Origin: Pleurostoma richardsiae
Lineage: Eukaryota; Ascomycota; Sordariomycetes; Calosphaeriales; Pleurostomataceae
Direction of reading: 5' to 3'
Length of the DNA stretch: 64,000 bases
Assembly: GCA_030052745.1 (NCBI GenBank)
Contig: JANBVO010000042.1
Coordinates: forward strand, 1 to 64,000
A model generated the notes under the pieces. The model made no database searches. It was not told the DNA's origin and saw nothing but the letters and a program-made list of their open reading frames with translations. Of this stretch, positions 13,517-20,072 are shown piece by piece; position 1 is the stretch's first letter, and each line of letters begins with the position of its first letter. The translations under genes and the position numbers were made by a program.

Positions 13517-14625
13517 TCACGATGCAGCTGCCACCATGCTGGGCTGTGCGGCCGCCATGGCGTTCATGGCCTTCTTCTTCTCCAGGGCGGCGAAGTTGCG
13601 CCGCATGGCGTTCTCGGTGAACTGCCTGCCGGTGACCATGGGGTACTTCTTCTGGGGCCCCTGGATCTCGCAGTCGGTGCAGGGCTGGTTGAAGAAGGCC
13701 AGGCTGTAGCGCGGGCCGTAGTAGTCGACGGCCGGGTCGGTGGGCGTCTTGACGCGGTGATACGTGGACTTGAAGCGGTCGTCGCTCCAGGACATGAGCA
13801 GATCGCCGCTGTCGGTTCCCCGTTAGCAGGATGATTCCGGACACTTTCTGGGATGCGACTCGTCATTCGACGGTCTAGAACTGGGACTTACATGTTGCAG
13901 ACGATCTCCCCGGCGGTGGGCTCGACCTTGGTCCACTCGTCGCCGATGCCGTACTCGGTGAAGACCTCCCTCCCGGGGCAGATCTCCAGGCCGCTCTGCC
14001 CGGGCCGCTGGAACAGCAGCGTCAGGAAGTCCCAGTCGGCGTGCTCGCCGGCGCGGTAGTAGCCCTCGGGGGTGGGCGAGGAGGGGTCGACGGCGAAGTA
14101 GTGCAGCGCGCGCAGCACGGACTGCGACTCGGGCCGGCGGACGTCGTGGGCCCTGACGAAGTAGTCGTCGGGGAAGCCGAGGCCGCGGGCGAAGCACACC
14201 ATGAGCCGCTCGCTGACCTCCTGGCAGCGGCGCATGAAGCCGAGGCTCTGGGCGCGGAAGCCGGGGAGCGCGTCCTCGGGCAGCCACATGCCGTCCATGT
14301 TGGCGCCGAACTGCATCTGGTAGCTCTCCTTGCGGTCCGCGGCGCCGGTGGAGGGCCGCACCTGGGCGTTCTTCTCCCAGCCGGCGTTGCGGTGGCTGAA
14401 GGGCACGGCGGCCTTGGCCTCGTCGGGCAGCGAGAAGAAGCGCTCCGCGGCCAGGAACTGCGCCTCCACCTCGTCGGGGCTGATGCCGTGGTCGACGAGG
14501 GCGAAGAAGCCGTCCGTCTCGGCGGCGGCGATCAGGGAGGAGGTGATCTCGTCGATGCGGGCGTCGAAGTCGCGGAGGGAGATCTTGGGGATGGTGCGGG
14601 TGGAGTACTTGGTTGGGGGAGCCAT
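13517..14625 (-). CDS. Fe(II)/2-oxoglutarate-dependent oxygenase, IPNS-like
   Basis: Two exons (minus): 14625-13892 and 13808-13517, 341 aa, with an 83-nt intron splitting an Ile codon. The N-terminal part (residues 10-130) matches the DIOX_N type (IPKISLRDF, DGFFALVDHGI). The catalytic double-stranded helix shows the iron triad H195-x-D197 (GEHADWDFLTLLFQ) and H262, and the 2-oxoglutarate pair R278-x-S280 (PRYSLAFF), so the enzyme should be active. This superfamily couples oxidative decarboxylation of 2-oxoglutarate to hydroxylation, desaturation or ring chemistry on small molecules; it includes isopenicillin N synthase and fungal thymine-7-hydroxylase. Its substrate cannot be read from sequence. 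It shares a GATA-rich divergent promoter with the amidohydrolase at 15671, which suggests a nitrogen-compound pathway. No signal peptide, so probably cytosolic. Confidence 0.85.
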
Positions 14626-15670
14626 CTTGAAGAACGGGGACTCAGGTGAGACAAAGGTGTTGAGAAGGGGAGAAAGGGGATGTGAGTCTCAATATCCTGA
14701 GAGATCTGAGAGTTGAGTGCTGCGAGAGACTCTTGCGAGTTTCGTTATGGTATGGACTGAGGGAATCTTGTCTTATTCCAACTGCTCTCGATGAAATAAA
14801 TCAATTTATTATATATAGAAACCTCCAACTCTGACAACTCGGTCGTCCGTCGGCCAGGAAATAAAGCGGAAGAATCTCGTCATCCGGCCTCTGTCCATCT
14901 CGGCGCCAGCCGCCTGCGCATCCACAGCCCAGGAGAAGCATGAATGGCCCTTGGAGGTCTCAGGCGGCTACACTAGGTCGCCACCGTGCATGTCCCGCTG
15001 GAGATAGTCTGATAGTCTAGAAAAACACTGCGCATGCACGAGGACAGGGTTTGCTATCAACGGTCTCCCCCGCAATCTGCGCGCCTCCCATCCTGCCGGG
15101 ACTGCGCCGGCGCGCCCGTATCGGGGCTATCGGCTGCCTGCACCGGGTTATCTGCCGCCTTAGGCCTTATCGCTGTCGGAGCCCGCCGCCGCCGCCGCAA
15201 TCTGCACGTGGGCTCCACCCGGCTCCATCTTCATCGACGATGATTCCTCCTGCGACTCCGGCGGGGAGCTAGGCATCGTGATGCTGCCCTATGAGGAGTT
15301 TTGAGCTGTCATTGATTGAGGTCTGTGATGTGGGATACGGCATCCCACGGCAAGTGCTGAGCTGGGCTCGTCGGCCAACTCCTAAACGCGAGGAGAGCGA
15401 GGATAGCGAGCATCCTCTCGAGGGACACCCTCTCGGAACGACGAAGGAGAACTCCAGGAGTTCCACAGTCTCGCAGGAAGAGGGACGAGGGGGAATCCAT
15501 TTTGATGACTGTATGGATCTCGTACTTGTTGTGTTACAGAGTCGTTCTCATTACCACATGATACCCATCCCCCCTTGCCCGTGCCTTAGGTAGGTAGTCT
15601 GGCATCACACCCCTTTGACACTCGCCTTTCTATCATCCAACCCCTGAGTCTGACTTGGTTGCCAGCCAAG
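14626..15670. promoter_or_regulatory. divergent promoter with clustered GATA-factor sites
   Basis: The 1045-bp region separates the oxygenase (leftward) and amidohydrolase (rightward) starts. Sites fitting HGATAR on either strand lie at 15002, 15010, 15054, 15127, 15148, 15167 and 15630 (first base of the six). Six of them fall in 171 bp. HGATAR is the binding element of AreA/NIT2 nitrogen regulators. AT-rich TTATTATATATAG lies near 14804-14819, about 180 bases upstream of the oxygenase start, and could be its TATA region. Regulation is inferred from motif density only. Confidence 0.5.
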
Positions 15671-17143
15671 ATGTCGGACAACGCGAGTGAGAACGCAAAT
15701 GAGAGCATCCTCCTCACCGACGCGACAATCATCACTGTCGATCCCTCCCGGCGCATCATCCTCAATGGCAGCATCCTCATCCAGGGCTCCCGCATTACCC
15801 ATGTCTCCTCCAAACCCCCTTCATCCCTCCCGCCCGGCACCCGCACCATCTCCCTGCCCGGCCGGATCATCATTCCCGGGCTGATCAACACCCACGCCCA
15901 TCTCGCACAGTCTATCCTGCGCGGCCTGGCCGAGGATCTCCCCCTGCACAACTGGCTCTGCGACCGCATCTGGCCCCTCGAGGCCGCGTACGCCGGCTCC
16001 GGCGACGCCGCGGACGGCTACGTCGCCGCGCGGCTGACCATCGCCGAGATGCTCCGCAGCGGCACCACCTGCTTCCTCGAGGCGATGCTCACGCACGGCA
16101 GCGGCGTCGACAACGTCGCCCGCGCGGTCCGCGAGTCGGGCGTGCGCGCCTGCCTGGGCAAGCTCGTCAAGTTCACCGAGACCAACCCGGCGCTGGGCAT
16201 CGCCGACGCGCGCGACCGCGACATCGACCACATGAGCGTCGCCTCGCTGCTGGGCGCCCACGCCGCGCACCACGGCTCCTGCGGCGGCAGGCTGCGCGTG
16301 TGGGCCGCGTGCGGCACGCCCCGCGGCGCGCCCGTCGAGGGCTACGCGGCCGTGGCGGAGGCGTGCCGCGAGAAGGGGATCGGCGTCACGATGCACTGCG
16401 CCGAGGCCCCGCGCGACCTGCCCATCTTCCGGGAGGTGTACGGGTGCACGCCGGCGGAGTTCTGCGCGCGGGCGGGGCTGCTGGGGCCGGGCAGGAGGAC
16501 GGTGCTGGCGCACATGTGCCACCTCGACCTGGCCGCGGACCTGCCGCTGCTGGCGGCGGCGGAGAGCGGCGCGTCGGTGGCGCACAACCCGGCCAGCAAC
16601 CTCAAGCTGGCGTCGGGCATCGCGGCGGTGCCGGAGATGCTGGCGGCGGGCGTCAACGTGGGGCTGGGCACGGACGGGGCGCCGTGCAACAACACGTACG
16701 ACATGCTGCGGGAGATGCACCTGGCGTCCATCCTGCACCGGGGCGTCAGCCTGGACGCGGCGTCGGTGGGCGCGCACGCGGCGCTGGAGATGGCGACGAT
16801 CAAGGGGGCGAGGGCGCTGGGCCTCGAGGACGAGGTGGGCAGCCTGGAGGTGGGCAAGAAGGCGGACATCGCGGTCCTGGACGTCAGGGGCGGCTGGGCG
16901 GCCCCCTGGGACCCGCAGGCGGCGAGGGAGGGTGGGATGGACCCCGTCGATCTCGTCGTGGGCACATGCACGGGGAGAGACGTGGAGCTGGTCATGGTAG
17001 ACGGCAAGATCTTGGTTGAGGGAGGGAAGCTGGTCGGCATGGACGAGGAGGAGATCATCGAGGCTGCGCGGCGGGCAGTCAGGGGCATACGGGAAAGGAG
17101 CGGAGTGAAGGCCACGCAGAAGCCGGAGTGGGTGTATGAGTAG
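15671..17143 (+). CDS. cyclic amidohydrolase/deaminase (TrzN/MTA-SAH deaminase-like)
   Basis: A single-exon gene of 490 aa; the first ATG is at 15671 (MSDNASENAN). It belongs to the metal-dependent amidohydrolase superfamily, TIM-barrel deaminases acting on purine, pterin or triazine-type rings. Visible metal ligands are H75 and H77 (NTHAHLAQ), H242 with nearby E245 (MHCAEAP), H281/H284 (AHMCHLD) and D335 (GTDGAPCNN). HNPASNLKLASG near 305-316 is the usual substrate-loop signature of the guanine deaminase, TrzN and methylthioadenosine-deaminase branch. Together this predicts hydrolytic release of ammonia or another leaving group from a C-N bond. All catalytic positions are intact. It is unusually GC-rich at third positions, as are its neighbours. 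Divergent from the oxygenase and followed by a permease. The exact substrate is not assignable; simple guanine deaminase is one alternative. Confidence 0.85.
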   Translation: MSDNASENANESILLTDATIITVDPSRRIILNGSILIQGSRITHVSSKPPSSLPPGTRTISLPGRIIIPGLINTHAHLAQSILRGLAEDLPLHNWLCDRIWPLEAAYAGSGDAADGYVAARLTIAEMLRSGTTCFLEAMLTHGSGVDNVARAVRESGVRACLGKLVKFTETNPALGIADARDRDIDHMSVASLLGAHAAHHGSCGGRLRVWAACGTPRGAPVEGYAAVAEACREKGIGVTMHCAEAPRDLPIFREVYGCTPAEFCARAGLLGPGRRTVLAHMCHLDLAADLPLLAAAESGASVAHNPASNLKLASGIAAVPEMLAAGVNVGLGTDGAPCNNTYDMLREMHLASILHRGVSLDAASVGAHAALEMATIKGARALGLEDEVGSLEVGKKADIAVLDVRGGWAAPWDPQAAREGGMDPVDLVVGTCTGRDVELVMVDGKILVEGGKLVGMDEEEIIEAARRAVRGIRERSGVKATQKPEWVYE

Positions 17144-18101
17144 CGAAGCAGCATAGAAGGCATTCATATCAAATGATGCTCATGATCTTTACCTGCTGGC
17201 ATAGACCGATCTTGACATCTCCGTTTTTCACCCTCACAAAACCCCAGTAGCACTGCCGGCTGCCCAGCACCGTGAATCTCCCAGGAGGTCCCAAATACAC
17301 GCCACTTCTGGAGTCTAGTAGATTTCACAGTAGTGTACGGGACATACACGAACAGACACGCTTCTCGGACATGAGCGCTCCGTTCAGACTCACTCACTCT
17401 CTCAACCTGAGCGACTTCGCCCCGGTCTCGTTCAACTAGTTCGTCGATGGCCACGAATTCCGGCCTCGTGTTCGACCAAAACTCAGCAGAACCGACTCTT
17501 CCGAACGATAACGGCCGCTGCCGGTGGTGAAGAATCTGCTTCTCGCGCGGAGAGAGCTATAGTTACCGCGATCTCGTCCATCGCTCGCGACCTTGCGAGT
17601 CATAAGCCAGAATGACGATAGTGACGAGCAAAATAACGCGACCGGAGGCTGGCGACGTGATAGCAGGCCCCCGGCAGATAAGGCGTTGTGGAGGAGGAGC
17701 CTAGAGAGCGCCCGCCCGGTCCCTGCATTAGCGATCGGGCCCGCTGTGGCAGGGCCAATTAGGGGCTTCTAGATTGCACACACCCACTGGCGGCCACCTC
17801 CGATAGATACCAGACACCCGCCGCCCTATCACGTCCGGGCAGAGATATGCCCCAATCTGCCATACAGCGTGGCAGCGTGGCATCGCTGCCTCGATCCGGA
17901 GCCGGTGGGGACCGCGAGACCCCGGTCGCTGGGGGGCGGGATGGGACTCCCGACGCTCAGGTTCGTGTCGACTGTCAGAAAATGCTATATAGAATCCGCG
18001 ATGATCGCGCCCCCTTGTCGATGGGCCCTACTTGGCATCTGGCCCTCGTCAACTGCCAGTCTGACTCTGCAATCGCGCCGCTGACAGATAACTGACAAGG
18101 A
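17144..18101. promoter_or_regulatory. permease upstream region with GATA-factor sites
   Basis: The 958 bp between the amidohydrolase stop and the permease start hold HGATAR-type sites at 17506, 17616, 17658, 17676, 17801, 17826 (minus) and 18086, the last only 16 bases before the ATG. No gene is seen. This resembles nitrogen-regulated uptake genes of fungi, but only the motif is seen. Confidence 0.45.
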
Positions 18102-20072
18102 ATGGCTTCATCGTCGCCGTCGCTCGAGAAGACGATGGCGCCTAGAGACGTCGCCGAGGAGCCCGTGGTGGCCGAGCAGGGCGTGACAGTGGACAACACC
18201 ACCTGGAAGGGCAGGCTGGCGTACCTGAGATGGTATTTCACCAGCAAGGCTGGCTGGCTTGGCGACTATGTGAGACGCTCATGTTCCCCGTCCCCCTTTT
18301 TTCGAGATATGAGACAGGCGCTGACATTCTTCACAAGGACTACCTGTATCTTGTCACGCCCAACATCTACCCGCTGAATCGCAAGTACAAGGACTATAAG
18401 GCGCCCTTCTACGGACTGAATGACGAGGTCCCTGTGCTGTTGACTATCATCCTCGGTCTCCAACATGTGAGTATCTGAATGAAAGGTCCCCAACAGGCCC
18501 GGATCAGCAGAGAGACTGACAGAGCAGTATCTAGGCCCTCTGCATGATCGGCTCCATCGTGAGCCCGCCCCTGGCCATCGCCGGCGGAGCTTTCTATTTC
18601 AACTCTGAAATAACACAGTATCTCGTGTCCGCGGCCTTCATCTGCACCGGCATCGCGACCGCCCTGCAGGTGACCAGGGTGCACCTGACCAAGACCCCCT
18701 TCTACATCGGCACCGGGCTGCTCTCCGTCGTGGGCCCGACCTTCGACATCCTTCCCATCGCCTTCAACTACACGAGCATGCGCTACGCCAACGGCACCTG
18801 TCCGACGGCCGAGGACGGCACCCAGCTGCCCTGCCCGGACGCCTGGGGCGCGATGCTCGGCACCATGCTCTGCACGGTCTGGGTGCAGATCCTGATGAGC
18901 TTCGTGCCGCCCAAGACCCTGAACAGGATCTTCCCCAAGATCGTGACGGGCAGCCTGCTCCTGCTGGTCGGTGTCTACCTCATCAGCAACGGCATGCAGA
19001 ACTGGGGAGGCAGCAGCAACTGCCACGACGGAACGGGCTTCTACGCCCTCTGCCCGAATACAGGTGCCCCCAGGCCGCTAGCGTGGGGCGACCCCAAGCT
19101 CATCGGCCTAGGGTTCAGCGTCTTCGTCTCCATCGTCGTCGTCGAGCAGTTCGGCTCGCCGCTGATGAAGTCCGCGTCGGTCATCATCGGCCTCTTCGTC
19201 GGCTGCCTCATCTCCGGGCTCACCGGCTACTGGTCGATGGACAACATCCATGCCGCCCCCGCGGCGACCTTCCTCTGGGTGCATACCTTCCACCTCTCCG
19301 TCGACGGCGCGCTCGTGCTCCCGCTGCTGATCATGTTCGTGTGCGAGGCCGTGTCCTGCATGCCGGACATCCTGGCCACCGCCGAGATCAGCAACGTCGA
19401 CATCGAGGGCACCGAGTTCAACTCGCGCATCCAGGGCGGCATCCTCTGCGACGGCATGGGCAGCCTGATCGCCGCGTTCGGCACGGGGCCGCCCATGGTC
19501 TCGCAGGCGGGCAACAACGGCGTCATCTCGCTGACCGGCTGCGCCTCGCGGAGGGCCGGCTGGTGCGCGGCCGCGTTCCTCATCCTCATGGGCATCTTTG
19601 GCAAGTTTGGTGCCGTCTTCGGGTCGATGCCTCCGTCGGTATTGGGAGGAATGCAGGTGTTCCTGTACTCGACCATCGCGGTGGCCGGTATCAGGGTTCT
19701 TGGCCTTGTGCCGTTCACGCGGAGGAACCGGTTCATATTGACGGCCAGGTAAGACTCCTTCCCTTCTTCATCGAGTTCTCAGCCCCAATGTTCATCTGCT
19801 AACCCACCATTCTCGTCTTCAGTCTCGGCATCGGCTTCCTAGACATTGTCCAGCCAGACTGGTTCGACCAGATCCTGGACTACTCCGGGTCCAACGTCCA
19901 CTTGGCCGGTTTCGAGCAGGGTGTCAACCTGATCGTCGAGACACCCTTCATCATCGCGGCTGTCATCGGCGTGTTCCTGAACCTGGTGCTGCCGGACGAC
20001 AAGAGTGAGATGGACATGATGCTCCGTGACGCCAACGGTAGGCCAATCTTCAGTGGGGAGCATTACGATTAA
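18102..20072 (+). CDS. nucleobase-ascorbate (NAT/NCS2) family permease with altered motif
   Basis: Four exons, 18102-18269, 18338-18466, 18535-19748 and 19823-20072, give 586 aa, normal for fungal UapA-type permeases. The cytosolic N-terminus has WKGRLAYLRWYFTSKAGWLGDYDY, typical of the family, followed by the first helix with the QH pair (GLQH, residues 98-99) and about 13 further hydrophobic segments. The NAT signature in helix 10 reads GNNGVISLTG (residues 425-434), where known purine permeases have Q/E/P at the first position. In helix 8 the usual E-x-x-G-D is replaced by S-C-M-P-D (373-377), although a Glu lies at 370. These positions bind the purine in UapA, so the ligand may differ from uric acid or xanthine. 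It sits beside the deaminase and oxygenase, and is probably their plasma-membrane importer. Confidence 0.85.

Follow-up and report, generated by a model that had tools for sequence, protein, structure and literature searches.

A permease, amidohydrolase and oxygenase gene trio in Pleurostoma richardsiae as a possible catabolic cluster for a purine-type base

In the uric acid-xanthine permease UapA of Aspergillus nidulans, a NAT/NCS2 protein, xanthine is held by the side chains of E356 and Q408, F406 contributes a packing ring, and E356 is irreplaceable (PMC3405029, PMC4837479). Fungi also contain a divergent UapD-like group of NATs, described as lacking the motifs that go with transport of nucleobases or ascorbate (PMC5972032); UapD is found in section Nigri, with no function shown in that account (PMC5307856). 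Among oxygenases, HxnY of the Aspergillus nidulans nicotinate cluster resembles thymine-7-hydroxylase (T7H), keeps the stacking residues and, as the cluster was described, has no assigned step (PMC9304392). Here we analysed 64,000 nucleotides of the Pleurostoma richardsiae genome (contig JANBVO010000042.1, positions 1 to 64,000; hereafter the window), in which three adjacent genes encode an Fe(II)/2-oxoglutarate (2OG) oxygenase (A), a metal amidohydrolase (B) and a NAT permease (C).

In this one genome the trio may be a small catabolic cluster under common regulation, serving the use of a purine-type base or a close ring analogue as nitrogen source, a reading that we put a little short of an even chance. 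The permease C, a symporter of the NAT fold whose binding site has been rebuilt, would import the ring compound; B would hydrolyse an exocyclic amino group and release ammonia; and A, as a free-base hydroxylase, could sandwich the flat ring between Phe284 and Trp198 and either hydroxylate it or oxidatively strip a side group, giving a product able to enter the general purine route. Joint expression, transport, the order of steps and the action of B on a free base are what we infer here. All three proteins would be compatible with a modified (e.g. methylated) purine base as substrate. An earlier sequence-only reading had proposed uptake, deamination and oxidation of a nitrogen ring compound, and this is still the best interpretation, given the gene company of B's relatives and of a paralogue of A, and the paired promoter sites; the altered substrate end of the permease motif speaks against it. 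The strongest support comes from the gene neighbourhoods found independently for relatives of A and of B, together with those promoter sites.

The trio consists of open genes that fill positions 13517-20072 exactly as proposed, and their modelled splice sites connect open frames (coordinates are given in Table 1). The proposed family assignments were likewise borne out, since all Pfam matches exceeded their curated cut-offs (DIOX_N and 2OG-FeII_Oxy for A, Amidohydro_1 for B, Xan_ur_permease for C). So was the promoter layout, with A and B transcribed divergently from a common gap and C preceded by a separate gap of its own.

Fungal purine-pathway activators (UaY/Ppr1) bind CGG-N6-CCG, and because of this the motif was chosen beforehand for a search of both gaps. 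Three sites were found in each. Shuffled sequences gave 0.71 (A-B) and 0.89 (B-C) when both strands of the palindrome were counted, equivalent to ∼0.36 and ∼0.45 sites, and the observed count was reached in 0.7% and 1.3% of shuffles, respectively (n=300). When spacings of 0-20 in CGG-Nk-CCG were compared, only six gave 3 + 3, the next-highest sum being 3. Within the window, CGG-N6-CCG triplets inside 400 bp occurred only in the two gaps; the other spacings had zero to four triplet places each, none of them in either gap. The control direct repeat CGG-N3-CGG was also present as 3 + 3, with 3.5 expected at the window rate versus 0.9 for CGG-N6-CCG. The AreA consensus HGATAR (PMC8478523) was found 7 + 7 times, versus 2.57 (A-B) and 2.49 (B-C) expected, and GATAAG showed no excess in either gap.

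The nearest solved structure to the oxygenase is the Neurospora thymine dioxygenase 5c3p (E 1.2e-26), and 94 of 260 aligned residues are identical between A and Neurospora crassa T7H. The sequence-only reading was right to call A an Fe(II)/2OG enzyme, and its description as IPNS-like needs correcting to T7H-like. The Fe- and 2OG-binding residues named for T7H (PMC4787775) are all retained (R172, Y176, H195, D197, H262, R278, S280), as are T7H Arg190 and the stacking Phe292. Tyr217 is replaced by Trp, a change reported in the T7H of some species (PMC4787775). Unlike T7H, A has His, Gln and Gln at the thymine-contacting positions N87, E122 and N294. We rejected A as the T7H of this genome: a separate gene on contig C71 (C71:115613-116407) matches Neurospora T7H at 77%, and the exons of A score far lower. 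By published description, A is also like HxnY, having the same Pfam pair, a resemblance to T7H and divergent transcription next to a gene for a transporter (PMC9304392, PMC8478523). This likeness is one of description and not of compared sequences, and the partner of HxnY is an MFS transporter, unlike the NAT permease C.

Within the genome, the nearest relative of A is a 63% paralogue on contig C62, which lies in company of a similar kind (Table 1). An NCS1 permease gene, of which the stretch contains the 3' part, was found ∼8 kb from this paralogue. A protein of the CDA fold, with a signal-like start, adjoins a TauD-family oxygenase; after removal of one predicted intron it scored 40.7 with PF00383 (cut-off 25), and its best solved relatives were guanine deaminases (E 3.9e-6) followed by cytosine deaminases (3.7e-5). 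The TauD-family neighbour gave one weak TfdA-type match, and its identity as XanA was not confirmed. The two loci thus share a base permease, a deaminase and an A-type oxygenase, and differ in that the C62 permease is of the NCS1 type, its deaminase has the CDA fold and further genes lie between. On two occasions, therefore, an A-type oxygenase has a base permease and a deaminase close by, with different folds each time. One part of the C62 stretch (L044) has three CGG-N6-CCG sites, two before the deaminase-like gene and one before the A paralogue, which are suggestive by position only because ∼3 per 9.9 kb is usual there.

A further pair of oxygenase genes like A, with 44-53% identity by exon, face apart at C43:123239-125914 (L046, L047). 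The frames near this pair, judged by eye, resemble a transporter, an M20-type hydrolase, a flavin monooxygenase and, in one long frame, a fungal transcription factor.

The amidohydrolase retains its metal ligands and HxxE acid (H75, H77, H242, E245, H281, D335), so that the statement of intact motifs was correct for the catalytic residues of A and B. In fold family, metal ligands and HxxE acid, B is like the COG0402 deaminases (guanine, methylthioadenosine/S-adenosylhomocysteine (MTA/SAH), 5'-deoxyadenosine and 8-oxoguanine). It differs in lying under the cut-off of all 25 best-listed NCBIfam models among 50 matched, and in branching apart from two MTA/SAH-type Protein Data Bank (PDB) rows and two of the host's own guanine deaminases in the tree described below. 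Guanine deaminase was rejected for B, given scores of 151.6 and 151.4 bits with TIGR02967 (cut-off 375.4) and the separate position in the tree. A structure prediction from a four-row alignment had a mean pLDDT (predicted local distance difference test) of 48.8 and was left unused for fold searches. Recent transfer from bacteria found no support, the best plasmid relative among 696 matching records being 35.3% identical. One distant relative (34%), on Rhizobium tumorigenes pRt1078 (L104, 3965-9221), has genes for an aromatic ring-hydroxylating dioxygenase subunit and a molybdopterin enzyme after it, and so belongs to another amidohydrolase-plus-ring-oxidation gene set, with an unrelated oxygenase.

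Genome contigs were scanned once for relatives of B with six short exact peptides, a method that detects close relatives only. Three were found, all archaeal (L054, L055, L056) and 37-43% identical to B. The frames around them were read, and an adenine-deaminase-family gene directly precedes the B relative in all three loci, with PuuE-like and carbamoyltransferase genes after it in all three and a molybdenum cofactor (Moco)-hydroxylase gene in two. L054 also holds AllB/dihydroorotase-like and cytosine-deaminase-like genes. The sequence-only reading had placed B in a purine-pterin-triazine branch; this needs correcting, in that its nearest relatives found sit in archaeal purine-type operons and not in a triazine/pterin branch. 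The label "purine-type operon" is itself a reading of mixed evidence, because of the NCBIfam scores. In L054 the scores (with cut-offs) were 442.2 (472.5) for adenine deaminase, 372.2 (357.85) for AllB, 344.1 (236.95) for aspartate carbamoyltransferase and 305.2 (438) for cytosine deaminase, and the PuuE-like protein was well under its cut-off (62.4 vs 424.6).

The three archaeal proteins and B were combined in a profile, with which 28 of 151 genomes in the phylum matched at E <= 1e-100. The 33 rows listed fell into two score classes; three lower-class rows without a locus were left out. Neighbours were counted over ∼1.5 kb per side (shorter in five loci close to contig ends) in 13 loci above 550 bits (L054, L055, L056, L073-L082), L066 at 515 bits and 20 lower-scoring loci, the weak-match loci L067, L068, L070 and L071 having been dropped. 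Among the 13 high-scoring loci, eight have an adenine-deaminase-family neighbour, four a Moco subunit and ten either of these. The last figure becomes 10/14 with L066 included and 7/10 without the three query loci, versus 0/20 for the lower-scoring loci. The other adenine-deaminase neighbours resemble the L054 protein at 32-36%, their family being judged by eye and not by curated-model score.

In a tree of 44 rows, B joined 14 high-scoring archaeal rows at 100/98; these rows had been gathered with the profile that contains B and three of them. The group is separate from the lower class, the two MTA/SAH-type PDB rows, the two host guanine deaminases and a plasmid protein (L102) annotated as a 5'-deoxyadenosine deaminase. 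B shares E137, L140, W211, T240 and Y343 with all 14 archaeal rows, and departs from all 14 at columns 215 and 218 (see below). MTA/SAH deaminase was rejected as the identity of B, since the His of the P-H-A-P-Y stretch, present in 22/22 lower-class and PDB rows, is Gly in B, which also falls outside the 4f0r/4dyk group; L102 is likewise without this His. Thirteen archaeal genomes that carry a B-like gene, and whose completeness is not established, were tested for guanine deaminase: none had one over the cut-off, and in all of them the B-like protein was the best match, suggesting that the archaeal clade may be a candidate guanine or purine deaminase.

Several observations weigh against a purine-base cluster, among them the altered permease. 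Overall, C is a relative of UapA, with an NCBIfam ncs2 score of 333.1 bits (cut-off 291.8) and 249 of 526 aligned residues identical (47%). It retains the Gln-His motif of transmembrane segment (TMS) 1 (Q98-H99, at UapA Q85-H86), the N-x-G-x4-T core, D360, D388, R481 and F528. Of 30 UapA functional positions compared, the 16 kept are mostly structural (Q85, H86, Q113, F155, D360, A363, D388, A407, N409, N410, G411, T416, L459, R481, T526, F528), and 14 are changed (M151, V153, S154, E356, T404, T405, F406, Q408, R417, F460, V463, S466, A469, G527). Unlike UapA, C has S373, Q423 and G425 in place of the xanthine-binding E356, F406 and Q408, so that the known base-binding side chains are gone. 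The TMS8 motif E-x-x-G-D (defined in PMC5972032) reads S-C-M-P-D, with the altered Ser373 at the substrate-binding position, and the TMS10 motif [Q/E/P]-N-x-G is altered at its own, starting with Gly425 and keeping N426, G428 and T433. Among the UapA residues called irreplaceable, Q85, E356, D388 and N409 (PMC3405029), C retains three of the four, with E356 the exception. At its substrate end, therefore, the transport motif is not intact as had been stated, and the cargo of C is probably neither xanthine nor uric acid. An acidic residue (E370) stands three residues ahead of S373 and an amide (Q423) two ahead of G425; given these, the binding site may be shifted rather than lost.

The amidohydrolase adds further difficulties. 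Its best-scoring NCBIfam model is 5'-deoxyadenosine deaminase (PRK07228), a candidate identity, at 326.6 bits far under the cut-off of 522; the L054 archaeal protein reaches 433.6 bits with the same model. The host already has five guanine-deaminase-family genes (on C84, C130, C43, C50 and C66; one over the cut-off, four at 330-370 bits), so B should act on another substrate. It sits on a long branch in the tree (1.38) and is unusual in composition. It lacks the Arg (column 215) and Gly (column 218) that are invariant in 14/14 archaeal rows, and its E104 is shared with 22/22 lower-class rows where the archaeal clade has Gln or Leu; because of these differences the substrate of B may differ from that of the clade and may be a nucleoside. 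None of the 13 archaeal genomes has a NAT permease, and the Moco protein of L055 best matches glyceraldehyde dehydrogenase alpha, well under the cut-off. As to the promoters, the full TCGG-N6-CCGA was found at 0/6 of the CGG-N6-CCG sites, and the 409 bp 3' of A are likewise somewhat rich in HGATAR (3 vs 0.89 expected). Overall, the weakest points are a transporter without known base-binding side chains and the question of whether B acts on a base or a nucleoside.

With these difficulties, other explanations must be weighed. The three genes could be chance neighbours, metabolic genes of expanded families with no common pathway. All three families are sizeable in the host genome (39.4 Mb, 136 contigs), with 42 exon-level matches to A, 12 to B and 8 to Xan_ur_permease, and the flanking genes are unrelated (Med5, TRAP-alpha, a HIT protein and a methyltransferase). 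Such an arrangement would not account for paired promoter sites in both gaps, nor for the nucleobase-gene company of the A paralogue and of B's relatives, and we consider it rather unlikely. The locus could instead be the same kind of cluster for another ring, such as a pyrimidine (5-methylcytosine, for example), a pyridine like those of the nicotinate pathway, or a pterin. The closeness of A to thymine-7-hydroxylase would suit this, as would the example of HxnY, T7H-like with its stacking residues kept and no assigned step in the nicotinate cluster (PMC9304392), and the two A-like genes on C43 near transporter-like and other degradative-looking frames (by eye). The purine-gene company of B's archaeal clade points elsewhere, as do the changed thymine-contacting residues of A and the presence of T7H itself as a separate gene, which together make a different ring unlikely.

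It is also conceivable that C does not transport, being a UapD-like NAT that is misfolded or out of use, next to an A-B pair that still works; this is compatible with the other explanations. The loss of E356, F406 and Q408 favours it, and UapA mutants carrying Q408P or F406S/A407S/Q408P had reduced or no transport (PMC5972032); UapD members have been described without a demonstrated function (PMC5307856). Against this, the frame of C is open through four exons, the residues at UapA Q85, H86, D360, D388, N409, N410, G411, T416, R481, T526 and F528 are kept, and E370 and Q423 may mark a shifted rather than a lost site. We judge a non-transporting C to be improbable. A 2015 study of UapD reportedly, going by its title, dealt with a misfolded protein.

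Returning to a cluster for a purine-type base, C matches the UapD-like NATs by their loose published description (canonical motifs gone), a comparison of description and not of sequence, and a linked deaminase and oxygenase such as those beside C are absent from the descriptions of that group (PMC5972032). For non-canonical fungal NATs without a function, linked enzymes of this kind would give a short substrate list and a direct genetic test. The comparison also points to the archaeal amidohydrolase clade, whose members may be purine (perhaps guanine) deaminases. More speculatively, and in our view doubtful, UapD-like NATs might import a modified purine base (e.g. methylated guanine or adenine), with the T7H-like oxygenase oxidising or removing the modification and the archaeal-type purine deaminase freeing ammonia; this would be an undescribed fungal pathway, with the C62 locus doing a parallel job for another base. 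A search of open-licence papers returned no account of a cluster of NAT, amidohydrolase and 2OG oxygenase genes, which is weak evidence of absence.

Table 1. Positions of the trio, its intergenic regions and key codons in the window, and of the related stretch on contig C62
Feature	Position	Strand	Structure or length	Content
Gene A	14625..13517	minus	exons 14625-13892 and 13808-13517; intron 13891-13809, 83 bases; 341 aa	Fe(II)/2OG oxygenase
Gene B	15671-17143	plus	single exon, intronless; 490 aa	COG0402-type metal amidohydrolase (deaminase)
Gene C	18102-20072	plus	exons 18102-18269, 18338-18466, 18535-19748 and 19823-20072; 3 introns; 586 aa	NAT/NCS2 permease
A-B divergent intergenic region	14626..15670		1045 bp	CGG-N6-CCG at 14901, 15061 and 15177; 7 HGATAR
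B-C intergenic region (upstream of C)	17144..18101		958 bp	CGG-N6-CCG at 17512, 17791 and 17903; 7 HGATAR
Ser373 codon of C	19354..19356	plus		place of UapA xanthine-binding Glu356, TMS8
Gln423-Ala424-Gly425 codons of C	19504..19512	plus		place of UapA Phe406-Ala407-Gln408, TMS10 NAT signature
A-paralogue stretch	C62:176500-196300 (L044, L045)			NCS1 permease, GFO/IDH oxidoreductase, TauD-family oxygenase, CDA-fold protein, A paralogue, amino acid permease

Relatives of C were also sought elsewhere. One scan of viral contigs found none. Within the host genome, tblastn with C or UapA as query did not match the NAT loci of contigs C91 and C51, which would be of the AzgA type, and C115 carries a UapA-like gene with the usual FAQNNG stretch. 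Five flanking frames of the trio were scanned, all unrelated to it: Med5 and TRAP-alpha upstream and, downstream, a basic protein without a Pfam match, a HIT/zinc-finger protein and a methyltransferase.

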